From Coleofasciculus sp. FACHB-T130 (GTDB lineage Bacteria > Cyanobacteriota > Cyanobacteriia > Cyanobacteriales > FACHB-T130): a DNA stretch of 64,000 nucleotides. Positions 15,930 through 30,396 of the stretch are shown in pieces. The position numbers and the translations under genes are program-made. Below the pieces are notes generated by a model, which ran no database searches, had not been told where the DNA came from, and was given only the letters and a program-made list of their open reading frames with translations. The stretch covers positions 124,001 through 188,000 of the forward strand of contig NZ_JACJOG010000053.1 of the NCBI RefSeq assembly GCF_014695375.1, in the 5' to 3' direction. Position 1 is the stretch's first letter. Each line of letters starts with the position of its first letter.

Positions 15930-16196
15930 TACACCTAGAGGATTGTACCTCTAGACTGAGCGCGATCGCCTCCTGAGATCGTTAGATGACTCTTCTTCCT
16001 GCGCGAGGGCTATTCTCAGTGCGATCCTTCCGTAACGAGCGATCGCAAGCGTGGATCTCTTCCAGTAGCATAGAAATTTTCTGCTTGCCAACCGTGATTT
16101 CCTCAGAAAGCATCGGGTTTTTGCCGATTCCCTACTGATGAAATGACCAATTTCTAAGCCAGCCATCTGCTAAACCGCTTGTGGAAGAGTTGTCCA
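15930..16196. other. Spacer between the thioesterase and first CHAT gene
   Basis: About 270 bases hold two HIP1-type sites and no gene I can support. The divergent promoters of the two flanking genes should be here; I see no consensus boxes good enough to mark. Confidence 0.3.
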
Positions 16197-19100
16197 ATGC
16201 ATCGTCGCGTCTATCACGTCAGTCTTCTCACGATTAGCCTGCTTCTCACCCTTCACCCTTCATCCTTCATCCTTCATCCTTCCGGAAGCGCTTTTGCACA
16301 GGCACCAACCTCTACAGACCGGAAAACTGAAGCAGACCGACTTTTCCAACAAGGCGTACAGCAGTATCGTCAAGGGCAATACCCAAAGGCACTCGCCACC
16401 TATCAACGGGTGCTAGAAATACAGCAACAACTGAATGACAAAGCCGGAATTGGGCAAACCCTGAACAACATCGGCGAGGTTTACTACTGGTTGCGGCAAC
16501 CTGACAAAGCTTTAGATGTTTTGCAGCAAGCTTTGGCTATTCGCAGAGAATTAAAAGATCGTACAGGGGAAGGAGAAACCCTAGATAATATTGGCTTGAG
16601 TTATTTCTGGAATGACCAAAATGACAAAGCTTTAGAAACCTTGCAACAAGCTTTGGCGATTCGTCGGGAAGTACAAGACAAAGCAGGAGAAAGTAAAACC
16701 CTCAGTAGTCTTGGCACGCTTTACGCGGGTGGTCTTCAGCAATATCCCAAAGCCTTAGAAAGCTTACAGCAAGCGCTGGCAATCCAACAAGAATTAGGGG
16801 ATAAATTTCTACTGGGAATTACTATGCGCCGAATGGGGACAGTCTATCGAGGCATGAAAGAGTATCCTCGTACTTTGGAGTGGTTGGAGAAATCGTTAGC
16901 CCTCAGCCGCGAAGTGCAAAACCGTGTAGGTGAAGGGGAAACTCTCTATCAGCTCGGCTTAACTTACTTTAATCAAGACAAGTATGACCAGGCTTTGCAA
17001 TTTTATCAGCAAGCATTGCCTCTTATTCAAGCCGTAGGAATTCACCTAGTAGAAGCTGGCATTCTCGAAGGAATGGGAGATTCTTACTTTAATCAAAAAC
17101 AATATGAGCAAGCGATCGCCTTTTACCAACAATCCCTCCCTGTTGTTAGAGAAGTAAAGAATAAGTCCCAAGAAGTTGGCATTCTTCTATTCATAGGGAA
17201 GGCTTACAGCAGTCTCAAGCAATACGAGCAAGCGATCGCCTTTAAGCAACAAGCTCTGGCAATCGCGCAAGCCATTCCCAATAATAAAGCGCAAGAAGCC
17301 AATGTTCTCTCTGGAATAGCCTATATTTACTTTAGTCAAAATCAATATGAGCAAGCGATCGTATTCTATCAACAAGGACTGGCGATTACACGAGAAACCC
17401 AAGATAAGCCCCAAGAGTCTAACTTTTTATCTCTAATCGGAAGTTCTTACTATTTGCAAGGCAAAGACGAGCAAGCCATTGAATTCCTTCAAAAATCATT
17501 AGCTATTCGTCGAGAAATCAAGGATAAACCCGCTCAACTAGAAACCCTAATCTTGTTAAGTGGAATATATAGCTCAACAGCCATATCATTTGTCAACAGA
17601 GGGGTGTATCCTCAAGCAAAAGCAGAGTATTCTCGCGTGATAGAGTTGGCACAGGAAGCTTTAAACCTTGCCAGAGAATTGAAAAAAACAAAATCAGAAG
17701 CAAGTGCTTTAATTCATCTGGGAGCAGCTTACAGCTTCTTTCAAGACGAGCAAAAAGCGATTGAAGTGTTACAACAAGCGATGAGCATTGCGCGAGAAAC
17801 CAAGGATTTAGGTATTGAAGACTCAGCTCTGACTCAGCTTGCTAGCATTTACAATACTCAGGACGACTCTCGCAAATATATTGAAATCAGGTTGCAACAA
17901 GTCGAAATTGCACGACAGCAAAATAATAAACGGGGTGAGGCAGATGTTTTACTCACTTTAGCCAGCACCTATAACGTACTTGGAGAAAATCAAAAGGCAG
18001 TCGAAACCTACCAGCAAGCATTAGCCGCAGCGCGACAAATCGAAATCGCTAAACTATTGCCAAATTTACAAGATAGTGCTTTAAGCACAGAATCGAGTGC
18101 GCTATCTGGCTTAAGTCTGAGTTACAGCAATCTTGGGGAATATGACAAAGCTATTGATTGGGCGCAACAGCTATTAAAGCGTGCACAAACCCTTGGTAAA
18201 CCTGCATTAGAAGTAGACGCGCTGCTGCGGTTGGCTTTCTTATACAATGTACCTCTCAAAAATGTTCCGAAAGCCATTGAAGTCAGTCAGCAAGCCTTAA
18301 CCATTGCGCGGAAAATCAAAGAATCCTCCCTTGAAGCAAAGGCACTGGCAAGCTTGAGCAGCGCTTACAACAAACAGGGAAACTATCCCTTAGCGTTGCA
18401 GTCGGCTGAGCAATGTTTAGCAATTGCCAAGCAGCTAGAAAACCCCCAACTAGAGCAGAATGCTTTGGATATTCTTGAAGAAATTTACTCCAACCAAGGT
18501 AACTATCAAAAAGCGGTGGAGTTTGCTCAAGCTAGGTTGGCAGTAGTGCAAAAGGCAAAACTGAACAACTATGAAATCAGTGCTTTAACGTCCCTAAGCC
18601 AGAGTTATGGCTTGTTAGGTGATACTACCAAAGCCGTGGAAACAGCCAAGCAAGCTTTAACTTTAGCACGACAAAGGCAAAATACTTCTCGTGAAGCCCT
18701 AGCTTTAAATGCTCTCAGCGACGCCTACAGAGTTCAAGGAGAATACGAACAGGGGATAGCAGTAGGACAAACGTCTTTGGAGATATCGCGCAAAAACAAA
18801 GATTTCATTGGAGAAGTAGCGGCGGCGACTATTCTTAGTGGAATGTATGAGGCTTTGGGAGAATATCAAAAAGTAATTGCAGTTGCAGAGCCAAGTTTAG
18901 CACAGGCAAGGAAAATAAATAATCGCGAACAAGAAGCAGAGTTACTAATCAAGTTAGGAAACTCTTACGGAATTATTGGCAAATACACAGAAGGCAAACA
19001 GTTAGTAGAGCAAGGATTAGCAATTGCGCGAGAATTAAAAAATCGTAGGCTAGAATCCCATGCTTTAGCTCGGTTGAGTAACCGCTACAAAGATTTAGGT

Positions 19101-21392
19101 GAATATCAGAAAACATGGGATTCACTTCAACAAAGTTTGAAAATTGCCCGTGAAACTAATATTCCAGCAGCACAGACCTTACCGCTAACTTCTCTGGGGA
19201 TTGTTTATGCTGAGCTTGGGGATTACCAAAAAAGTAACGAATTCTATCAACAAGCACTGCCCATACTACGTCAACTCAAAAATCGCTTTGACGAAAGCCT
19301 TGTGCTGCTTTTTATCGCCCAAAACTATTTTGCCCAAGGAAATCCACAAAAAACTATTGAATCCGCTCAAGAAGGATTAGCAATTGCTGGAGAAATTAAA
19401 GAGCCGCAAATCCAAGCATTTGCTAATATATTGCTGAGTCTTGGCTACGGGCAATTGGGTAATGACAAACAAGCAATGGAAGCCGCTCAAACTTGGTTGA
19501 ATTTTACTAGAAAAGTCCAAAATAAAGTTTGGGAAAAACAAGCTCTTACTCTGGTTGGACATATCCATCGCAAATTTAGACGCCAAGAAGAAGCCATTGA
19601 GGTATATCAACAAGCACTTGCGATCGCAACCGATAATCAAGCTCCTAGCGCTGATGCTTTCATTTATTCAGGGTTAGCGCGTATCTACCACGATTTGAAT
19701 CAGTCAAGTGTTGCCATTACTTACTATAAGCAATCGGTTAACAAAATTGAGGAAGTCAGGCGTGGTATCGAAGGTTTACCACAAGAGTTACAAAAATCTT
19801 TCTTGGATGCAACAGTTGATTTCGACAAGGTGAAGGTATCTGATATTTATCGTCAGTTAGCAGCCTTGTTGCTCTCCCAAGGACGGGATAAAGAAGCCCT
19901 ACAAGTGCAGCAACTATTGAGAGAGCAGGAAATTCGCGAAGCCATCAGTCCTAGAGGTACTACGGGGGATAAGCCGAACATTCCACTCTCTCCGACGGAG
20001 ACAAAGATTCCTGCTCAAAGCGAGTCCATCATTGCCTTAGCAAAACAAATTAATGAGTGCGAAAGTACCAATTGTAGTCAACTTAAAGAGCTTACGAGTC
20101 GCCGCACCTCTCTGATTGTTCAATTTGACCAACAATTGCAGAAGATTGACCAAGAAATTCGCGCTAACCGTGCCAAAGATGACGCTTTCTTTGACCCAAA
20201 CAAACTAGCAAAAGCTCAAGAGATTGTCGAAGCACAACCAGGCACGGTGATGATTTATCCCTTGGTTCTAGAAAACGAACTGTGGTTACAACTATATGCC
20301 CCAGGGGGTGCGGTCAAAACCGTTAAAGTTAACGTCGGAAGAGATGAATTAGGAAAAACGGTCAAAGAGTTCCGCGATTTAATGAAGGAGTGCGAGCAGG
20401 TTGCTCATTGCGGTTCGGCTGAAGCTAATAAGATACAAGCTGTTAGCCGAAAACTTTATGACTGGCTAATCAAAGACTTAGAGGCGGAACTTCAGAATAA
20501 GAATAACCAGGTGAAAAACTTGGTCTTTGCTCTTGATAGGGTGACGCGCTATATTCCGATGAGCGCTCTTTATGACGGGAAACAATACCTAATTGAAAAA
20601 TACACCGTCTACAATGTATTGACAGAAGATACTGACACCCGCGATAAACTACCTGTCGGCACTCAAAATAGCCCTGTTTTGGCAATGGGATTATCTGATG
20701 CTGTCCCTGGTTTCAGTCCTCTACCAAATGTGCCTGCTGAAATCGATGCGATTGTGCGTCAAGAAACTAAAAATAATCAGGGAATTTATCCTGGTCAAAA
20801 GTTCTTAAACCGTTCTTTTGACTTTGCTACTCTGCAAGACAATTTGAAAAGTTATCGAATTTTACACCTAGCGACTCATGGGGTATTTGTTCCTGATAGC
20901 GCAGATAAATCTTACATCCTCTTAGGAACCGGCGAACAACTCACGATTCCTCAGATAAAAACCTTAACCGGGTTAAATAACATTCATTTGGTTGTGCTGT
21001 CAGCTTGCCAAACCGCCTTGGCTGGTCCCCGTCAAGACGGCATAGAAATTGCTAGTATGGCTTACCACTTCTTGAATCGGGGCGCAAAGGCGGTGATGGC
21101 TTCCCTGTGGCTCGTGGACGATAGCAGCACCAGTCTTTTGATGCAGCAATTTTATAAAAATTTAGCTAACGGCACCTCTAAAAAGGCGATGACTAAAGCG
21201 GAAGCGTTGCGCCAAGCTCAACTCAATCTGTTACAAGGCAATGTCTCAACAGCAGCCAATACCAATCCTCGCGGTGGCATTATTGTCGAACAAATACCTG
21301 GTTCTAGACCGCCGATAACCCCCAGCAACGGCTCAAAATTTTCTCATCCGTATTATTGGGCACCGTTTATTTTGATAGGAAATGGACTTTAA
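16197..21392 (+). CDS. Exported giant TPR-CHAT protein (1731 residues)
   Basis: From ATG 16197 a Sec-type signal peptide (VSLLTISLLLTL ... AFAQ, about residues 1-36) leads into roughly 28 tetratricopeptide units of about 40 residues (residues 45-1200), most of the kinesin-light-chain/TPR_12 pattern (xxLxxxGxxYxxxxxYxxAIxxxxQALAIAR). A coiled linker follows. The C-terminal CHAT domain (about 1380-1731) is a caspase-like CD-clan peptidase fold with candidate catalytic His1561 (LATHGVF) and Cys1604 (LSACQTAL). It ends in the CHAT-typical YYWAPFILIGNGL. The TPRs are expected to bind a partner or substrate in the periplasm. The gene is first of a four-gene co-directional set. Odd points are the heptamer repeat inside the signal-peptide codons and the large TPR number. 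Confidence 0.92.
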   Translation: MHRRVYHVSLLTISLLLTLHPSSFILHPSGSAFAQAPTSTDRKTEADRLFQQGVQQYRQGQYPKALATYQRVLEIQQQLNDKAGIGQTLNNIGEVYYWLRQPDKALDVLQQALAIRRELKDRTGEGETLDNIGLSYFWNDQNDKALETLQQALAIRREVQDKAGESKTLSSLGTLYAGGLQQYPKALESLQQALAIQQELGDKFLLGITMRRMGTVYRGMKEYPRTLEWLEKSLALSREVQNRVGEGETLYQLGLTYFNQDKYDQALQFYQQALPLIQAVGIHLVEAGILEGMGDSYFNQKQYEQAIAFYQQSLPVVREVKNKSQEVGILLFIGKAYSSLKQYEQAIAFKQQALAIAQAIPNNKAQEANVLSGIAYIYFSQNQYEQAIVFYQQGLAITRETQDKPQESNFLSLIGSSYYLQGKDEQAIEFLQKSLAIRREIKDKPAQLETLILLSGIYSSTAISFVNRGVYPQAKAEYSRVIELAQEALNLARELKKTKSEASALIHLGAAYSFFQDEQKAIEVLQQAMSIARETKDLGIEDSALTQLASIYNTQDDSRKYIEIRLQQVEIARQQNNKRGEADVLLTLASTYNVLGENQKAVETYQQALAAARQIEIAKLLPNLQDSALSTESSALSGLSLSYSNLGEYDKAIDWAQQLLKRAQTLGKPALEVDALLRLAFLYNVPLKNVPKAIEVSQQALTIARKIKESSLEAKALASLSSAYNKQGNYPLALQSAEQCLAIAKQLENPQLEQNALDILEEIYSNQGNYQKAVEFAQARLAVVQKAKLNNYEISALTSLSQSYGLLGDTTKAVETAKQALTLARQRQNTSREALALNALSDAYRVQGEYEQGIAVGQTSLEISRKNKDFIGEVAAATILSGMYEALGEYQKVIAVAEPSLAQARKINNREQEAELLIKLGNSYGIIGKYTEGKQLVEQGLAIARELKNRRLESHALARLSNRYKDLGEYQKTWDSLQQSLKIARETNIPAAQTLPLTSLGIVYAELGDYQKSNEFYQQALPILRQLKNRFDESLVLLFIAQNYFAQGNPQKTIESAQEGLAIAGEIKEPQIQAFANILLSLGYGQLGNDKQAMEAAQTWLNFTRKVQNKVWEKQALTLVGHIHRKFRRQEEAIEVYQQALAIATDNQAPSADAFIYSGLARIYHDLNQSSVAITYYKQSVNKIEEVRRGIEGLPQELQKSFLDATVDFDKVKVSDIYRQLAALLLSQGRDKEALQVQQLLREQEIREAISPRGTTGDKPNIPLSPTETKIPAQSESIIALAKQINECESTNCSQLKELTSRRTSLIVQFDQQLQKIDQEIRANRAKDDAFFDPNKLAKAQEIVEAQPGTVMIYPLVLENELWLQLYAPGGAVKTVKVNVGRDELGKTVKEFRDLMKECEQVAHCGSAEANKIQAVSRKLYDWLIKDLEAELQNKNNQVKNLVFALDRVTRYIPMSALYDGKQYLIEKYTVYNVLTEDTDTRDKLPVGTQNSPVLAMGLSDAVPGFSPLPNVPAEIDAIVRQETKNNQGIYPGQKFLNRSFDFATLQDNLKSYRILHLATHGVFVPDSADKSYILLGTGEQLTIPQIKTLTGLNNIHLVVLSACQTALAGPRQDGIEIASMAYHFLNRGAKAVMASLWLVDDSSTSLLMQQFYKNLANGTSKKAMTKAEALRQAQLNLLQGNVSTAANTNPRGGIIVEQIPGSRPPITPSNGSKFSHPYYWAPFILIGNGL
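16251..16278 (+). repeat. Heptanucleotide tandem repeat inside the signal-peptide codons
   Basis: Four tandem heptamers, CTTCACC then three CTTCATC, are followed by a partial CTTCC. They lie in frame in the signal-peptide region of the TPR-CHAT gene and encode HPSSFILHPS-like residues between the hydrophobic core and the AFAQ end. Similar imperfect units extend a little upstream. Confidence 0.8.
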
Positions 21393-21429
21393 AAAACTAT
21401 CAAAATTCAGGTACTTGGTAAAGGTAAAA

Positions 21430-21523
21430 GAGATGGAAAAAATTTCTCACCTTCTTGCTTACGATTGGGCACCTCTGATGCTGATTAGAAATGGCACCTC
21501 TGATGCTGATTAGAAATGGATAA
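21430..21523 (+). pseudogene. Scar of another CHAT protein C-terminus
   Basis: In the spacer after the first CHAT gene the frame at 21439-21495 reads K-I-S-H-L-L-A-Y-D-W-A-P-L-M-L-I-R-N-G. This aligns with the true CHAT end K-F-S-H-P-Y-Y-W-A-P-F-I-L-I-G-N-G of both neighbours. A 25-base segment (21468-21492) is then duplicated exactly (21493-21517). The second copy, in its own frame, ends A-P-L-M-L-I-R-N-G-stop at 21521-21523. The natural reading is a lost third CHAT gene of which only the last 20 codons survive, later hit by a 25-base tandem duplication. Confidence 0.7.
21468..21517 (+). repeat. Exact 25-base tandem duplication
   Basis: GGCACCTCTGATGCTGATTA plus GAAAT occurs twice back to back (21468-21492 and 21493-21517) without mismatch. 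It lies within the CHAT scar. Twenty-five is not a multiple of three, so the duplication shifts the frame. Confidence 0.95.
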
Positions 21524-21606
21524 TAACACGCCCAACTCAGATAGTTGATGCTTTGGCGATTGGCTATACTAGAGGCGCTTAACGCTCAGGAGAGGCAACA
21601 AATGCA

Positions 21607-22752
21607 ATGAAACAAAGAATTCTAGCCGCCGCTGGGCTGTTATCTGTCCTCTGGTTCGCTACGCCAGTGAGAGCGGAAAATCCCGAACACCTTAAACGGT
21701 TGCTGGAAACCAATAAATGCTTGAATTGCGATCTTAGCGGTGCCAACTTGATGGGTGCCAGATTGGTTGCAGCCGACTTGAGAGGAGCTAACCTGAGTGG
21801 TGCCAACTTAAGCGGCGCTGACTTGTCTGGTGCTAACTTGACCAATGCCAACTTAACCAGGGTGAATTTGAATCTTGCCAAATTGACGGGTGTTATAGGA
21901 GTTCCTAACAATCTCGTCTCTTTGGAGCCAAGAACACAGAATAGGCAGGAAGGTGGAGGATTCCGTTTGAGGGGTATTGTTTACAATCCTCCAGAGCAAG
22001 AAGTTCCGAATATTCGGGAACCAGGAGCCTCGCGTGGTCGTAGCGCCTGTATTGTTGATGCAGAGGGTCTAACTGCGTTGATACCAGGCAAGAATTTTGG
22101 GGTAACGGTTACAGGATATCCAACCTTGTTCTTTTATATTCCAAAAAATCCCCCGCAGACAGCAGAGTTGATGGTATGGGATGTAGAGGGAAAGCAGGTT
22201 GTTTACGAGACCACTTTCAAGATTTCTCAAAACCCTGGTGTTGTTAGCGTTAGCCTCCCCGAACAAGCAGGTATAAAACCGCTACAAGTTGGAAAAACAT
22301 ACCGTTTTTCCTTCGCACTGCTTTGCGACCCTAAAGACCGAGGAAGTAATATTTTGGTTGAAGGCTGGATTCGACGCAACGAATTAAGCGCCACTCTTGC
22401 CAATCAATTACAGCAAGCATCGCCCCAAGAGCGTCCAGCCATCTATGCAAAAGCTGGCATCTGGTATGAAACTCTGACTACTCTGGCTGAGCTACGTCGC
22501 GATCGCCCTAACGATTCTACACTAGCTGCCGCCTGGGAAGATTTGTTGAAGTCAGTGGGACTGGAGGCGATCGCTACCGCACCCTTACTTCCGCAGCAAA
22601 CACAGAGAAGCACTCCACCAATCTCTCAACCGGCTGGTACTTTAAATGCACCTGGAGGGCAGGCAGGAGGAGGAACCCAGCTTAGGGGTGGTGCTTACAA
22701 TCCTGCGGAAATTGCAGCTCCTGGCGCGACACAAGGAGGCGGATCTCGCTGA
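21607..22752 (+). CDS. Exported pentapeptide-repeat plus DUF928 protein
   Basis: The 381-residue protein has a good RBS (CAGGAGAGG) before ATG 21607. A signal peptide ends near VRAEN (residue 24). A short pentapeptide-repeat helix of A(D/N)LxG units follows (residues 38-95), headed by an N-terminal [11 protein letters not shown] motif. A DUF928 domain lies at about 113-265 ([45 protein letters not shown]), then a helical segment and a Pro/Gln/Gly-rich tail. DUF928 has no known function but recurs beside CHAT and secretion genes in cyanobacteria (from memory). The last 30 residues, [21 protein letters not shown], repeat the domain's own start, [19 protein letters not shown], and then stop. This suggests a second DUF928 copy was cut off. 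Confidence 0.9.
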
Positions 22753-22860
22753 CGATTGGATAAACTTTCTACTGGTAAGACTGCCAGATATCAATTACTT
22801 ACCGCAAAAGAAACGCGATGAAGGATATTAAAGCTAATCCGCTTGTGTAGCAGTATTTTT

Positions 22861-25800
22861 ATGCGTTCCCCTATCCAGAAACTTAGCTTTACTACAGCCT
22901 TACTTTTATCTTTCAGTTACTTCTTCCCAATGGCAGCGAGGTCCTTAGCCTTAGCAGAGTTCCTGGTGGAACCAGCACAAAAAACACGGTTTATCGCATC
23001 TCGACAAGAGCAAAAAACTGAGGCAAATCGGCTGTTTCAACTAGGCATTCAGCAATTTCGTAACAGCCAGTTTAAAGAAGCTCTGCAAACCCTAGAAAGA
23101 GTTCTGGAAATTCGCAAAAGAATTGGCGATAAACCAGGGGTTGGGGAAGCACTTACTAGCCTGGGGGAAGTTTACAATGGCTTGAGTCAATACGCCAAAG
23201 CTTTAGAAACCTTACAGCAAGCACTTCCTCTCCGCAAAGAAGCGCGCGACAAGGTAGGCGAAGGACGGACGTTAACAGAAATTGGTGCCACATACCGCGA
23301 GTTAGGACAGTTTCCTAAAGCAATGGAGATTCTACAACAAGCGTTGGGAATTCTAAAAACAACAGACGACAAGGTAGGCGAAGGCAATACTCTCTATAAC
23401 ATTGGTATTGTTTATAGCGGTCAGGGACAATATCCGCAAGCACTAGAGTTCCTTCAGCAAGCTTTGGAAACGGCGAAAGCAGCAAATGACAAGCTAGGCG
23501 AAGGCAGAACTCTGAACACGATTGGCGGAGTTTATGACAGCCAGGGACAGTATCAAAAGGCGATAGAGTTTCAACAACAAGCTTTGAAAATTCTTAGGGA
23601 TATTGGCGATCGCTTGGGTGAAGTCCGCACTCTAAATAACTTGGGCATCACTTATCGCAAGCTAGGCAGGTATCCTCAAGCCCTAGAAGTCCATCAACAA
23701 GCTTTAGCCATTAGCCGAGATATCGGGAATCCCGCCAATGAAGGGCGTAACCTTTACAACATTGGTGTCGTTTATCGCAGCTTAGGCAACTATCCTCAAG
23801 CTCTGGAATATTATCAGCAAGCTTTAGCAATTAGCCAAGAGATCGGTGACAAGACAGGTGAAGGGCGCACCCTCATTGGTATCGGGGCAGTTTATGACAG
23901 TCTGGGGCAGTATCCAAAAGCGCTGGAGTCTTACCAGCAAGCGTCGGGAATTCTTAAAACTATCGGCGACAAAGCTGGTGTTGGGGCGACTCTCAATAAC
24001 ATTGGGGGAGTGTACTACAGCATGGGCGAGTATTCCCAAGCACTGGAATTCTATCAGCAGGCAATAGAGATTGCTAGAACCATCGGTGACAAAGCTGGTG
24101 AGGGGCGCACGCTCAGCAACATGGGGGGAGTTTACGATAGTTTAGGTCAGTATCCCCAAGCACTGGAATTCTATCAACAAGCTTTAGCTAACCGCAGAAC
24201 TATCGGCAACCGCGCGGGTGAAGGAAATACCCTCAACAGCATTGGAGGAGTATACGAGAATTTAGGGCAGTATTCTCAGGCACTCGCATTCTTCAAGCAA
24301 GCTTTGGAGATTCGTCGGGAGATTGGCGATAAGGCAGGCGAGGGAACGACTCTCAACAATCTTGGAGAAACCTACCGCAATTTGGGTCAATATCCCGAAG
24401 CGTTGAAACTCTATCAGCAGGCGGTGGAGATTCTCAAAGAAATTGGCGACAAGGCGGGTGAGGGAGTCACCCTCAACAATATCGGAGTTGTTTCTAATCA
24501 GTTGGGACAGTATCCCCAGGCGCTGGAGTTCTTTCAACAAGCTTTAGCGATTCGTCAAACCGTTGGCGATCGGGCTGGAGTTGGGGCGACTCTTAATAAC
24601 ATTGGGGGAGTTTACAACCAGTTAGAACAGTATCCCCAAGCGTTAGAGTTTTTTCAGCAAGCATTGGGAATTGCTAGAGAAATTGGCGATAAGACAGGCG
24701 AAAGAATTGCGCTTGGCAATATGGGTTTTTTGTTAGAGAAACAGAATCAGCCAGAATTAGCGATCGCTTTCTACAAGCAAGCCGTGAATGTTACAGAAGT
24801 AATTCGCCAAGATTTACGAGTGCTGCCACGAGAGCAACAGGAATCCTATACTCAAACCATTGCCGACACCTATCGCGCCTTCACTAACTTGTTACTGTCC
24901 CAAGGGCGAATTTTAGAAGCTCAACAGGTGTTAGAACTATTGAAAATCCAGGAATTACCCAACTATACAAAAAATGCGAGAGCTGGGGATAAAACTTCAG
25001 GAATCGCCTTAAATCCCATTGAAGAAAAGATTCTCAAAGAAAATGGAACCTTAATCGCTTTTGGGCAGCAAGTGGAGCAGTGCAAGCAAAATCGGTGCAG
25101 CCAGTTGAGCCAATTCAACGATCGGCTTCAGGCTTTAACCGAACAATATAATCAGACAATTGAAACCATTCAAAAAGAAATTCGCAGCCGTCGCGCTCAA
25201 GATGATGCCTTTTTTGACCCCAATAAACTTAGTAAAGCTAAAGAGATCGTCGAATCTCAACCAGGTACCGTGCTGATTTATCCCTTCGTACTAAAGGACA
25301 AAATTTGGTTGCTATGGGCATCGAAAGGAGGCATTGTTAAAAGCCTGGAAGTTCCCGTAACGCAGCGGCAATTAGGCGAATCTGTATTAAAATTCCGTCA
25401 GTTAGTAGAAGATTCCCGGTCTGACATTGCCGAAGTCAAGACAACGGGGAAACAACTCTACGACTGGCTAATTAAACCGATTGAACCCGAACTCAAAGCG
25501 AATAAAATTCAAAATTTAGTTTTTTCGATGGATCGGGTTACTCGTTACATTCCCATCAGTGCATTGTTTGATGGCGAAAAATATTTAATTGAGAACTACT
25601 CCGTTTCTACGGTGCTATCTGCTGACTTAACAGATGTGCGCGATCGCCTTCCTCCTGGCATTCAAAATACCTCCGTTCTAGCGTTAGGACTATCTCATGC
25701 AGTTGCTGGCTTTAATCCACTGCCCAATGTCCCAGCAGAATTAGATGCGATCGTGCAAAAGAAACCGAACGACACAACAGGAATTTATCCGGGAAACGAA

Positions 25801-26397
25801 TTTCTCAACAATGCTTTTGATTTTCCTACTTTGCGAGATAATCTGACAGATCATCAGATTTTGCATATTGCTACCCACGGTCAATTTGTGCCAGGACGCC
25901 CAGACGATTCATTTCTGCTATTAGGTACGGGTGAGAAATTAACAATTTCTCAGATTCAAACTTTACAAGATTTGGGCAATGTTCATTTGGTTGTGCTATC
26001 AGCTTGCGAAACGGCACTGGGCGGGCCTGACCAAGACGGTGTAGAGATTGCTGGCATCAGCTACTATTTCCTCAATGCTGGAACCAAGGCAGTAATCGCT
26101 TCCTTGTGGCTGGTGGACGATCGCAGCACCAGTCATCTGATGCAAAAATTCTACAGCTATTTAGCTCAAAGTACGCAACAGACACCCATAACAAAAGCTA
26201 CAGCCCTTCGCCAATCTCAACTGGGCTTGCTGCACGGTGATTTCTCAACCCCAGCGCTTAATAATGTTGATAGTCGCGGCAGTATTAATGTTGAAGCAAT
26301 ACCCAATTCTAGAAGCGAAAATACTCTCGGTGCTGGGTCAAAATTTGACCATCCTTACTATTGGGCACCGTTCATTTTGATAGGAAATGGACTTTAA
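22861..26397 (+). CDS. Exported TPR-CHAT protein with 15 regular TPRs (1178 residues)
   Basis: From ATG 22861 a signal peptide (LSFTTALLLSFSYFFPMAARSLALA) precedes 15 TPR units of exactly 40 residues (about 50-640). They are unusually alike: G(E/V)G.TLNNIGGVY..LGQYPQALEFYQQAL.I...IGDKA. A helical linker and a CHAT domain (about 840-1178) follow, with candidate catalytic His1006 (IATHGQF) and Cys1049 (LSACETAL) and the same YYWAPFILIGNGL end as the first CHAT protein. It is a second CD-clan peptidase paralogue, shorter and far more regular in its repeats, so the sensing platform was recently amplified. The start at 22843 is also open, but the ATG at 22861 heads the better signal peptide. It is 108 bases after the DUF928 gene and 53 bases before the caspase gene. 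Confidence 0.92.
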   Translation: MRSPIQKLSFTTALLLSFSYFFPMAARSLALAEFLVEPAQKTRFIASRQEQKTEANRLFQLGIQQFRNSQFKEALQTLERVLEIRKRIGDKPGVGEALTSLGEVYNGLSQYAKALETLQQALPLRKEARDKVGEGRTLTEIGATYRELGQFPKAMEILQQALGILKTTDDKVGEGNTLYNIGIVYSGQGQYPQALEFLQQALETAKAANDKLGEGRTLNTIGGVYDSQGQYQKAIEFQQQALKILRDIGDRLGEVRTLNNLGITYRKLGRYPQALEVHQQALAISRDIGNPANEGRNLYNIGVVYRSLGNYPQALEYYQQALAISQEIGDKTGEGRTLIGIGAVYDSLGQYPKALESYQQASGILKTIGDKAGVGATLNNIGGVYYSMGEYSQALEFYQQAIEIARTIGDKAGEGRTLSNMGGVYDSLGQYPQALEFYQQALANRRTIGNRAGEGNTLNSIGGVYENLGQYSQALAFFKQALEIRREIGDKAGEGTTLNNLGETYRNLGQYPEALKLYQQAVEILKEIGDKAGEGVTLNNIGVVSNQLGQYPQALEFFQQALAIRQTVGDRAGVGATLNNIGGVYNQLEQYPQALEFFQQALGIAREIGDKTGERIALGNMGFLLEKQNQPELAIAFYKQAVNVTEVIRQDLRVLPREQQESYTQTIADTYRAFTNLLLSQGRILEAQQVLELLKIQELPNYTKNARAGDKTSGIALNPIEEKILKENGTLIAFGQQVEQCKQNRCSQLSQFNDRLQALTEQYNQTIETIQKEIRSRRAQDDAFFDPNKLSKAKEIVESQPGTVLIYPFVLKDKIWLLWASKGGIVKSLEVPVTQRQLGESVLKFRQLVEDSRSDIAEVKTTGKQLYDWLIKPIEPELKANKIQNLVFSMDRVTRYIPISALFDGEKYLIENYSVSTVLSADLTDVRDRLPPGIQNTSVLALGLSHAVAGFNPLPNVPAELDAIVQKKPNDTTGIYPGNEFLNNAFDFPTLRDNLTDHQILHIATHGQFVPGRPDDSFLLLGTGEKLTISQIQTLQDLGNVHLVVLSACETALGGPDQDGVEIAGISYYFLNAGTKAVIASLWLVDDRSTSHLMQKFYSYLAQSTQQTPITKATALRQSQLGLLHGDFSTPALNNVDSRGSINVEAIPNSRSENTLGAGSKFDHPYYWAPFILIGNGL

Positions 26398-26450
26398 AAA
26401 ATTTTGAGTTTTGAGTTAAGACAGTAACACCAATCTAGTTAGAAGTAATT

Positions 26451-28604
26451 ATGCCTTACATTAAGCGTCGTCAGTTTTTGCAGTTTGCTGGATCGACTTT
26501 GGCAACGCTGGGTTTGAGCCAGCTGGAGATTATGCAGCAAGGCGATCGCTTTAGTCGTGCGATCGCTCAAGGAACACCTCGCAAACTTGCCTTGCTGGTG
26601 GGGATTAATGCCTATCCAACAGCACCGTTGCGAGGATGCGTCACTGATGTCGAGTTGCAGCAACAACTGCTGATTCACCGATTTGGCTTTAATCCGAAAG
26701 ACATTCTGCTCTTGACTGATGGGCAAGCGACCCGCAAGGGCATCTTAAATGCCTTTGAAGAACACCTGATTAAACAAGCTAAAGCCGGGGATGTCGTGGT
26801 CTTTCACTTCTCAGGGCATGGTTCCCAAGTAACCGATCCCGACTGCGACTTCAAAGACCCGACAGGGAAGTGTCTTAATAGTACCTTTGTGCCCATCGAT
26901 AGTGCGCTGCCTACCGGATTTCCCAATGAAAGAGGCGTTGTCGAGGACATCATGGGGCACACCTTATTTTTATTGATGGATGCCCTGAAGACAGAGAACG
27001 TTACCGCAGTGCTGGATAGCTGTCACTCAGGTGGCGGCAAACGGGGGAATTTAGTCGTGCGATCGCGTGATGGGGGTTCCCAACTTCAACCAGTTCCCGC
27101 CGAAATAGAATATCAGGAACAATGGCTCTCTCGCCTGAATCTCTCACCCGCTGAATTTGTGCGTCGCCGTCGCGAGGGTGTTGCCAAAGGTGTCGTCATC
27201 GCCTCCGCCAAGCGGGAACAGTATGCCGCAGATGCCCCCTTCAGCGACTTTTATGCCGGTGCTTTTACTTATTTAATGACTCAATATCTGTGGCAACAAA
27301 CTGGCAGCGAATCTTTTGCCAGCGCCCTCCCCAATATTGGTCGTAACACTACTCGGATGTCATCTCGTCAAAACCCAGAATTTGAGGCGAAACCAGGCAG
27401 CAATAATCTCAAGCAACCGATGTACTTTATTGGTCAACAAACGCCTCCAGCGGAAGCTGTGATCACTAAAGTAGAAGGCAACCAAGCTCAATTATGGCTG
27501 GGCGGACTTAACCCCCAAAGTTTAGCGGCTTTTGAGCAAGATGCCCTCCTTACCGTAGTAGACTCCCAAGGGCGCGAACAAGGAGTCGTGCAGTTAGAAT
27601 CTCGTGAAGGCTTAATCGGACGCGGAAAATTGTTAAAAACTGCCAAACCCGGATCGCTGTTGCAGGAACGCACTCGTGGGATTCCCAGTGATGTAACTTT
27701 AAAAATTGGTCTTGACCCCTCTTTAGGCAACGACACCGCGCAGGCGAAACAAGCTTTGCAAGCGATCAAGCGCCTTGAACCTGTACCTTTACAACAGCAA
27801 GAGGTGCAATACATCTTTGGAAGGATGAAGAGTGAGGGCAGTTTAGGTTTATTTTCGCCAGCGATGGAGCCGATTCCTGACTCCTTTGGCACTGCCGGTG
27901 AAACCGTAGCCGATGCTGTCAGTCGCCTGCAAGCCAAACTGAAATCATTACTAGCAGCCAGGATTGTCAAACTCACTCTAAATACCAATTCATCGCGCCT
28001 AAACGTCAATGCTTCGATGAATCGAGCCGGTCAAAATGAAATTTTGGCTAGTGCTTTCACCGTTCGCGGTAGCGATCGCAGTCTCGGTCAAAAAACTTCT
28101 TCCAATAATCCTTCAGGAAATCTTCCCTCAGATGCCCGAAAGTTACCAATCGGAACGTCGGTGCAGTTCCAGATTACAAATAACGAGCCGCGCGACCTCT
28201 ATTTCAGCGTCCTAGTCATTGACCCAACGGGAGAAATATCGGCAATCTTCCCGAATCAGTGGACGGCGACCGATGATGTTACGCAGGTGAAGGCTGGGCA
28301 AACACTACAAATTCCTGGGACTGACGATCAATTTAACCTTGTCACCCAAGAACCCAAAGGAGTCGCAGAAGTCTTGATTGTTGCCAGTAGCACGCCCCTG
28401 CGGAAAGCCCTGCAAGCGTTGCGGAACCTAGCACCACGGGATACAAGAGGCCCCGTAGCTCTTTCGGAGCCAACTCAAGTGGTCGGCGATTTGCTGGATG
28501 ACCTTGCGGAAGGCACGCGCGGCACTGGAAACTCTCCCCAAGGCGTGAGTAACGTAGATACAACTCAGATGGCGGCGATGTCGATTACCTTTGAAGTTAT
28601 TTGA
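26451..28604 (+). CDS. Orthocaspase (C14) with Tat-like signal and DUF4384-type tail
   Basis: The 717-residue protein opens with KRRQFLQFAGSTLATLGLS, a twin-arginine-like signal, suggesting export in folded form. The p20 caspase-like domain spans about residues 45-335, with catalytic His123 (FHFSGHGSQ) and Cys191 (VLDSCHSGG). The domain ends in a fragment typical of cyanobacterial caspases (ASAKREQYAADAPF...GAFTYLMTQYLW). The middle part (350-540) is unassigned. The C-terminal region (about 560-665) resembles DUF4384 (LPIGTSVQFQITNNEPRDLYFSVLVIDPTGEISAIFPNQ). Such enzymes usually cut after Arg/Lys and often need calcium; that is family knowledge, not seen here. It is last in the CHAT set. Confidence 0.92.
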   Translation: MPYIKRRQFLQFAGSTLATLGLSQLEIMQQGDRFSRAIAQGTPRKLALLVGINAYPTAPLRGCVTDVELQQQLLIHRFGFNPKDILLLTDGQATRKGILNAFEEHLIKQAKAGDVVVFHFSGHGSQVTDPDCDFKDPTGKCLNSTFVPIDSALPTGFPNERGVVEDIMGHTLFLLMDALKTENVTAVLDSCHSGGGKRGNLVVRSRDGGSQLQPVPAEIEYQEQWLSRLNLSPAEFVRRRREGVAKGVVIASAKREQYAADAPFSDFYAGAFTYLMTQYLWQQTGSESFASALPNIGRNTTRMSSRQNPEFEAKPGSNNLKQPMYFIGQQTPPAEAVITKVEGNQAQLWLGGLNPQSLAAFEQDALLTVVDSQGREQGVVQLESREGLIGRGKLLKTAKPGSLLQERTRGIPSDVTLKIGLDPSLGNDTAQAKQALQAIKRLEPVPLQQQEVQYIFGRMKSEGSLGLFSPAMEPIPDSFGTAGETVADAVSRLQAKLKSLLAARIVKLTLNTNSSRLNVNASMNRAGQNEILASAFTVRGSDRSLGQKTSSNNPSGNLPSDARKLPIGTSVQFQITNNEPRDLYFSVLVIDPTGEISAIFPNQWTATDDVTQVKAGQTLQIPGTDDQFNLVTQEPKGVAEVLIVASSTPLRKALQALRNLAPRDTRGPVALSEPTQVVGDLLDDLAEGTRGTGNSPQGVSNVDTTQMAAMSITFEVI

Positions 28605-28625: not shown

Positions 28626-28690
28626 GCAGTATCTTGAGAACCGATCCACTTGGGGGTGGAGTTTGCGGGCTTCATGCCTGAAGATACTGC
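28626..28690. repeat. 65-base cloverleaf-like inverted-repeat element
   Basis: GCAGTATCTT (28626-28635) and AAGATACTGC (28681-28690) are perfect complements enclosing 45 bases. Inside are two smaller hairpins: TCCAC/GTGGA (28645-28649 and 28656-28660) and GGGC/GCCT (28667-28670 and 28676-28679, one G-U pair). This makes a three-way junction. It begins 22 bases after the caspase stop and lies about 190 bases upstream of the TnpB remnant. It has no U-run, so it is a poor simple terminator; it may be a transposon-end or a structured RNA element. Confidence 0.6.
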
Positions 28691-28876
28691 TAAAGACGGA
28701 AATCTGCTGTTTAAACTAGCCCCATAGCAGAGACCGTGATACCTTTAAAAATAATGTTAATATCTTGCAATAATTAGGAGCGATCGCAAACGTCTCGCCT
28801 CGATACTGCTGTAAACCACTCGATATCCATAAAGGTCGAGTGCAAAGATTACAGTAATTTAGGATACAATTCTCTA

Positions 28877-29760
28877 ATGAGAATCGCCCATGAGTATCGA
28901 TTGCGCCCAAGTCAGCAGCAGTTAGTTACAATGGAGGAATGGATAGAAGCGCTCAGATGGCAGTACAATTATCGGTTGGCTGAACGCTTTAACTGGTGGA
29001 AACAAAAAGGTTGTAATACTAACTGCTATTGCCAAAGCAGTTGTTCAATCGCATCAATTAGAGATAAGCTAGATTCTTGCAGCCAAAAGCGCAATTTTAA
29101 AAAAATAAACTCTTTATTTCCAGCCGATAAAAGACTTTTTTTTCAACGATTACAAAACTGCGTTGAGCAGGTGGCAATCCCTCGATACAATAGGAAAGCC
29201 CAGAAGCGGATTGAGCGGTTACAGCGTCAGTTGTCTCGCCAGAAACAGGGCAGTAAGCATCGAGTTAAAGCTGTCCAGCAGATTGAATTGTCACCGTTAA
29301 ATGTTGCAAACCAGCGTCAAAATTTTTACCAACAAGTTGCCAACTGGCTATTGAAGCAATTAATGGTGGTTGCCGATCGAGACTTGATCAACAAAAAACT
29401 CGCCGGGAGCAAATTGGCAAAGTTTGTTACGGGTGCTGGATGGGAAAAATTCGTGTCTATCTTGGCGCTCATCGGTGCCGGGAAGAAGCGCTATTCGGCG
29501 TTTAAGAGGTTGATTGCAGGAAGGCGTTTCTATGGGCTAGTACATCCATCTGGCACGATTCAAGAAGATTCTAGCTGTGAGGCGGAATTTTTCAGGACGC
29601 AGGCTGATAGATGGTTTTTCTATTCTGATGACGGATTGGCTCTTAATCGAGATGAAAACGTTTTCAGGAAAATGAAGAAAAAGGCGGCGGTCATCCCATC
29701 AGGCTGTGGAGTTGGGGTAGACCAAAAGGCTCTCGCTGAAACGAGAAATCTCCAAATAAG
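28877..29760 (+). pseudogene. Degenerate, nuclease-dead TnpB (IS200/IS605 OrfB) remnant with open frame
   Basis: The N-terminus (MRIAHEYRLRPSQQQLVTM, then WQYNYRLAERFNWW) is clearly TnpB/OrfB of the IS605 type. After residue 97 the protein jumps to IPRYNRKAQKRIERLQRQL, so the DNA coding the first RuvC block with its catalytic Asp is deleted. The RuvC-II Glu is Arg (VVADRDL instead of the usual VxxEDL). Most zinc-finger cysteines are gone (SSCEAEFF). Only the late Asp (NRDEN) remains. The frame is nevertheless open from ATG 28877 to 29908 and runs into the RRM gene; recognisable homology ends near 29760. It is probably a dead insertion-sequence relic, with domestication a weaker possibility. 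There is no tnpA and no clear right end. Confidence 0.8.
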
Positions 29761-29886
29761 CCGTAAGGTTGATTGGGAGAAGCTGTCACCGAAGATCGGG
29801 TTTAGTGCGAGCAGCCCAATCGAGTATACGCTTTGTGCGCGATCGCAATTTTTGTCTAAAGATATTGAGTCTGGAGGTATTTTTCC

Positions 29887-30396
29887 ATGTCTATCCGTTT
29901 GTATGTAGGCAATCTGCCCAAAGAAGAAGTAGACCGTCAGGAGTTACAAGCTCTTTTTGGGGACATGAGCGATTCTGTTTCCACCAAGGTGATTAAAGAC
30001 CGGAAAACCGGCAAATGTCGGGGTTTTGCGTTTGTAACCGTGAAGACGGATGAACTGGCTGATGAAATTATTGAAAAGTTCAACGGTCAGATGTTCCAAG
30101 AAAGCCCGCTGAAAATAGAAAAGGCATTGCCACGAGCTAAGGGTGAAGGGGAAGAAGAACCTCGCCCAGCAGCTCCAGCTCCTATTAAAGACCCCAACAA
30201 AGCTGCTAGCGGCGGCGGTGGCGCTCCCGCTCCCGCTCCCACAGGCGGCGGTGGTCGTCGTGGTGGCAGCAACAAGAAGTCGCGACGCTCTGAAGGGACA
30301 ACATCTAATAATGAATCAGATACCTTTCAACCCGACCCCCGCTGGGCTGGCGAATTGGCGAAACTGAAGGAACTGTTGGCTGCTCAAAGCAATTAG
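29887..30396 (+). CDS. RRM-type RNA-binding protein with Gly-rich tail
   Basis: The 169-residue protein has one RNA-recognition motif (residues 1-80) with RNP2 (LYVGNL) and RNP1 (CRGFAFVTV) intact. An Ala/Pro/Gly-rich low-complexity tail with repeated GGGG and a basic RRGGSNKKSRR patch follows. A short C-terminal helix (PDPRWAGELAKLKELLA) closes it. Cyanobacterial Rbp proteins are cold-induced or help target mRNAs to the thylakoid; this version has a longer tail than the usual 90-110 residue Rbp. TGGAGG lies 10 bases before the ATG at 29887. The start falls inside the end of the TnpB-remnant frame, so the old element supplies its leader sequence. Confidence 0.9.
   Translation: MSIRLYVGNLPKEEVDRQELQALFGDMSDSVSTKVIKDRKTGKCRGFAFVTVKTDELADEIIEKFNGQMFQESPLKIEKALPRAKGEGEEEPRPAAPAPIKDPNKAASGGGGAPAPAPTGGGGRRGGSNKKSRRSEGTTSNNESDTFQPDPRWAGELAKLKELLAAQSN

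Follow-up and report, generated by a model that had tools for sequence, protein, structure and literature searches.

A nuclease-dead tnpB remnant ahead of a cyanobacterial RRM gene: an open reading frame with codon-blind substitution

The locus described here lies close to several known systems: translated leader frames and coupled upstream cistrons, the TnpB proteins of IS200/IS605-family elements, and the nuclease-dead TnpB relatives known as TldRs. Leader peptides of the classical kind are short, and their action usually depends on their sequence. The TnpB of ISDra2 is built from WED (residues 1-12 and 117-176), REC (13-116) and RuvC (185-326 and 360-375) domains, with catalytic residues D191, E278 and D361, and its second WED segment contributes to the surface on which the omega-RNA is held (PMC10097598, in excerpt). 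In TldRs, according to the excerpted text of PMC13418256, nuclease activity has been lost while the binding of guide RNA and DNA seems to be retained. The IS200/IS605-family TnpB elements of cyanobacteria share with our locus a common origin, visible in the N-terminal HTH_OrfB domain, the RuvC helices and the right-end motif.

The window, a 64,000-nucleotide stretch of the Coleofasciculus sp. FACHB-T130 genome (G000, 6.2 Mb), contains an open frame of 343 amino acids that begins with ATG, has no internal stop codon and runs into the start of an rbp gene encoding an RRM protein (Table 1). A first-pass annotation had read this frame as a TnpB that keeps its N-terminus and late region, has lost the first RuvC aspartate, the glutamate and most zinc-finger cysteines, and overlaps the RRM start, and each of these points was borne out. 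Pfam places HTH_OrfB_IS605 at residues 1-45 (1.6e-9, above the cut-off) and a sub-threshold OrfB_IS605 match at 98-173 (24.4 bits against a cut-off of 30.5); scores against the NCBIfam TnpB models fall far under the model cut-offs. Aligned with intact cyanobacterial TnpBs, to which it is 37-42% identical over the aligned part, the product lacks a single block equivalent to residues of about 96-223 in the intact homologue L014 (128 residues replaced by 4, a net loss of about 124) and about 84-210 in ISDra2 TnpB. Part of REC, the whole second WED segment and the beginning of RuvC, including the aspartate of the GIDMG motif, went with the deletion. The RuvC glutamate is arginine in the window (HE to DR) and R, W or K across the four genomes that carry the remnant, all of which keep the last RuvC aspartate (RDEN). 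Most zinc-finger cysteines are gone from the window's genus; the other carrier genus still has the second CxxC. Neither the D-E-D triad of active TnpB, of which only the last residue remains, nor its WED/REC/RuvC architecture with a CCCC zinc finger, for which the equivalent of WED 117-176 is missing, has survived. The Pfam TNB domain was found in all three intact proteins scanned and in none of the four dead ones, while HTH_OrfB is recognised in all four carriers (24.9-43.1 bits).

Table 1 Features of the rbp locus (window coordinates).
Feature	Position	Strand	Basis
rbp (RRM) gene: old promoter/leader block, now 5' of the insert	28681-28776	+	matches the RRM upstream region in insert-free genomes
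Probable left end of the IS605-type element, putative, boundary approximate	28800-28876	+	starts where empty-leader homology stops
Nuclease-dead, deleted tnpB open frame, 343 codons	28877-29908	+	ORF, domain and alignment evidence
In-frame internal deletion junction, codons 97-100	29165-29176	+	alignment to intact TnpBs
Right-end remnant of the element, GGGAGAAGCTGTCAC (intact copies read GGGAGTATGTCAC or close to it)	29775-29789	+	by eye
Candidate guide start, 16 nt	29790-29805	+	genome search: no further site above control
Shine-Dalgarno GGAGG of the RRM gene, common to insert-free genomes	29873-29877	+	
rbp gene, RRM protein, 169 aa	29887-30396	+	Pfam RRM_1, 6.3e-15

Relatives carry the same form. 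The identical deletion at the identical place was found in four of the six genomes of the family (two of its four genera), and the same four were the only carriers among 388 genomes of the order: G000 and G001 in the window's genus (g1), and G005 and G002 in a second genus (g2). Effectively these are two independent lineages, with G002 and G005 97% alike. All four share the deletion, a remnant directly 5' of the RRM gene and the same downstream neighbour, which we take to be DUF1818. A scan of genome contigs with the single protein gave no match; with alignment A2 it returned one carrier (Trichocoleus sp. FACHB-40, apparently among the four) and 38 other TnpB-related loci. Unlike mobile IS200/IS605 TnpB genes, the dead form is fixed at one site in two genera.

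The RRM gene occurs without the insert in G004, of the same family, and in G030, G018 and G007. There the leader, some 285 nt long, opens with a common block (GTGATACCTTTAAAAAT or a variant of it) and closes with a common GAGTCTGGAGG ahead of the ATG. Most of it is lost in the carriers, which keep the first block upstream of the remnant and the last block at the RRM start; within the first block, positions 28697-28757 show 8 differences in 60 between the two genera. The right-end motif, judged by eye, is visible in most of 14 loci compared and indistinct in L019, L030 and L068 (15 loci were entered, and L029 yielded nothing). The shared deletion and position, the empty leader in relatives and the right end still visible in the window together indicate, by comparison, a single insertion of an IS605-type element into the 5' leader of the rbp gene in the common ancestor of the two genera, before they split; tnpB would then have lost about 124 codons in frame. 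The long rbp leader of the insert-free genomes is recognisable at loci L054, L044, L045 and L049, in the stretch of about 450 nt that precedes the RRM gene. The RRM motif was found in 9 of 12 loci compared, and the three without it (L058, L059 and L060) were dropped. Conserved RNA structure in the empty-site leader was weak (covariation term +0.5), with no Rfam match at gathering thresholds, and the one Rfam match near the locus was at chance level.

The frame is open in all four carriers. When the observed substitutions were shuffled randomly among positions with the same kind of base, 8.3-9.8 stops were expected between the window genus (G000/G001) and G005 and none was seen (P <= about 5e-4 in each direction); over the tree 13.2 were expected against 0 seen, and the minimum in 20,000 permutations was 2. 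A comparison confined to the window genus gives a modest signal (3.4-4.0 expected, P 0.01-0.02). From G000 to G005 the five other frames gained stops about as expected (gained/expected 6/6.8, 4/5.6, 5/5.0, 2/6.0 with P 0.048, and 6/7.3), so a general avoidance of stop-like triplets is no explanation. In a free nucleotide alignment of G000 and G005, all seven indels of the core are multiples of three (3, 3, 3, 3, 3, 12 and 3 nt), as against one of five in the leader (16, 4, 1, 1 and 15 nt) and none of six in the tail (5, 19, 11, 1, 265 and 10 nt).

Past the TnpB core the two genera have different tails, yet each carrier's tail stays open as far as the RRM gene, with dinucleotide-shuffle P values of 0.0016 and 0.0012 in the near-identical g2 genomes and 0.05 and 0.037 in g1. 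Three different stop codons terminate the frame beside the RRM start, close to the ribosome-binding site of that gene: the stop codon ends 22 nt inside the RRM gene in the window genome, an overlap peculiar to it, 18 nt before the gene in G001 and 26 nt before it in G005 and G002. In g2 (L012 and L013, about 2280-2745) the tail holds a 265-nt extra stretch, containing sequence similar to cyanobacterial interspersed palindromic repeats, that does not close the frame. At the level of sequence comparison, selection on translation through the remnant is well supported; its purpose we infer below.

Substitutions in the frame are codon-blind, and we detected no purifying selection on the peptide sequence. 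Across the four genomes, dN/dS (w) of the core is 0.84 (0.69-1.13), with 0.72 (0.54-1.00) for codons 1-186 and 1.05 (0.69-1.65) for codons 187-271; the pairwise values, 1.2 (G000-G001) and 0.75 (G000-G005), are not different from 1. The neighbours give 0.03 (RRM part), 0.21 (rest of the RRM protein) and 0.19 (DUF1818). A simple count over the core points the other way, with pN/pS of 0.64-0.68. Set against random placement, 24 synonymous codon changes were seen where 26.5 were expected, and the mean BLOSUM62 score of changes was -0.47 against -0.51; the RRM and DUF1818 controls deviate strongly from random placement. Between G000 and G005, TnpB-conserved and variable columns changed about equally (59 of 131 and 70 of 146), conservation being judged from the 12 intact TnpBs at loci that passed a motif filter, the others being left out. 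Codons 1-96 show 5 synonymous changes where 8.6 were expected and no BLOSUM excess. Codons 97-186 show a weak synonymous excess between genera (13 vs 7.6, P 0.027), and their conserved TnpB columns change somewhat less (7/40 vs 15/46). We did not let dN/dS carry the argument alone, since the insert also has a low dS relative to the neighbours; the weight was put on tests that work without an external neutral rate, namely those of stops, indels and codon placement. The first-pass annotation had tied its reading both to an intact frame in close strains and to purifying selection: the former stood, with no stop or frameshift in any carrier, and the latter was not detected on amino acids. Its interpretation is partly supported, and what is kept appears to be translation through the insert.

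Any codon but a stop, indels in frame, and an open frame as far as the next ribosome-binding site: this pattern agrees with a requirement that ribosomes pass through the insert. Our preferred reading, to which we assign a probability of about 0.5, is that the remnant is a translated leader or upstream cistron of the rbp gene whose peptide is nearly free to change. The old promoter block upstream has stayed conserved, so the rbp message would probably cross the remnant. Ribosomes would translate the remnant from its own ATG and, given the geometry seen in the carriers, stop beside the rbp Shine-Dalgarno sequence. Stops and frameshifts would be purged if untranslated insert RNA lowered rbp expression, whether through mRNA decay, premature termination or lost coupling and re-initiation. 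Cyanobacteria have no Rho (PMC13289151, in excerpt), which makes the classical Rho route unlikely. Against coupling, the RRM gene has its own strong Shine-Dalgarno sequence, and coupling is not obviously needed. Slow change of the insert at all codon positions may point to a nucleotide-level constraint outside the translated-leader model, and the promoter-like site discussed below, if real, would start rbp transcription inside the frame and count against that model.

Like translated leader ORFs and coupled upstream cistrons, the frame ends at a downstream Shine-Dalgarno sequence and the selection on it fits translation itself; it differs from them in its length (about 340-410 codons), its origin in a transposon gene and its nearly unconstrained coding sequence. 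It is a plausible but tentative proposition that, in a phylum without Rho, exaptation has turned a transposon-derived frame over 300 codons long into a ribosome track and nothing more, with an almost unconstrained peptide. No description of this locus was found in the literature searched. If correct, the translated-leader reading would provide a natural locus that separates selection on translation from selection on protein, and a test case for the cost of long untranslated RNA to a cyanobacterial gene in the absence of Rho.

The remnant could alternatively encode a small, fast-evolving functional protein, for example with an N-terminal HTH and a helical middle, that might act on the rbp promoter; the frame would then be preserved for its product. 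Preservation of the frame beyond chance, the HTH_OrfB domain still recognisable in four genomes, the w of codons 1-186 and the weak synonymous excess in codons 97-186 are all in its favour. The codon-blind substitution, with no BLOSUM excess in codons 1-96 or overall, speaks against it, as do TnpB-conserved columns that are not spared overall and the fact that unrelated tails are open too. The predicted structure of the product is also not confident (pLDDT 36.5), a result of little weight as an intact TnpB control was likewise poor (51.2). We consider a functional protein unlikely.

A decaying pseudogene without function, open by chance or through recent recombination, would account for the loss of the catalytic residues and zinc finger and for the lack of detectable amino-acid constraint, and the first-pass annotation had taken the large deletion to favour decay. 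Plain decay with a lucky frame is not what the four open frames and the depletion of stops suggest, however, and out-of-frame indels fall in leader and tail while those of the core are in frame. Stops do occur in further tnpB remnants of related genomes, L015 and several others among them. On this evidence decay is quite unlikely.

Selection could instead act on a nucleotide-level element, such as an internal promoter or an RNA structure of the rbp leader, with the open frame as a by-product. The insert has a dS of 0.10 and 0.56 where the medians of neighbouring genes are 0.216 and 1.03 (31 and 17 genes, restricted to those with w under 0.5 and over 120 codons), or about half, and a dN of 0.117 and 0.416; it is slow at synonymous and other sites alike, most clearly at 28876-28996 and 29176-29296, at all codon positions. 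This slowness could reflect a function of the nucleotide sequence itself, recombination at the locus or a locally low rate of change. At 29163-29191, across the deletion junction, stands a promoter-like TTGAGC-17-TACAAT that is nearly identical in the four carriers; the deletion may have created an internal promoter for the rbp gene. Such matches numbered 5 where 2.1 +/- 1.5 were expected, which weakens the case. A nucleotide element also gives no account of stops being absent from the sense frame only, or of the open tails, and we regard it as decidedly unlikely.

The candidate guide, searched against the genome with up to two mismatches, matched itself and three sites at two mismatches, compared with 8 for a reversed-pattern control; a target reached by weak pairing, or one on other replicons, may exist. 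A TldR-type RNA-guided repressor, as the first-pass annotation had entertained, here with its guide encoded at the right end, is highly improbable, and TldR identity was rejected on anatomy, the lack of amino-acid constraint and the guide search: the remnant resembles TldRs in its inactivated RuvC and its stable association with a non-transposon gene in four genomes, and what is left of a right end is present, but the second WED segment is deleted, the guide-RNA- and DNA-binding regions are not retained in a conserved protein, conserved TnpB columns are not spared, no genomic target was matched above control, and the scaffold region is open coding sequence that aligns poorly between genera, so that by its sequence the remnant is unlikely to work like a TldR. 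The combination of a nuclease-dead TnpB, an open frame and a stable neighbour is accordingly insufficient for a TldR call, and codon-level tests are needed.

Elsewhere in the window genome, contigs C39, C14 and C58 hold four further copies of tnpB that score above the Pfam cut-off and have open frames of 378-539 amino acids. Upstream of the locus, at 16179-28604 on the forward strand, lie in a row two TPR-CHAT proteins, a DUF928/pentapeptide protein and a caspase-domain protein (Peptidase_C14 and DUF4384).
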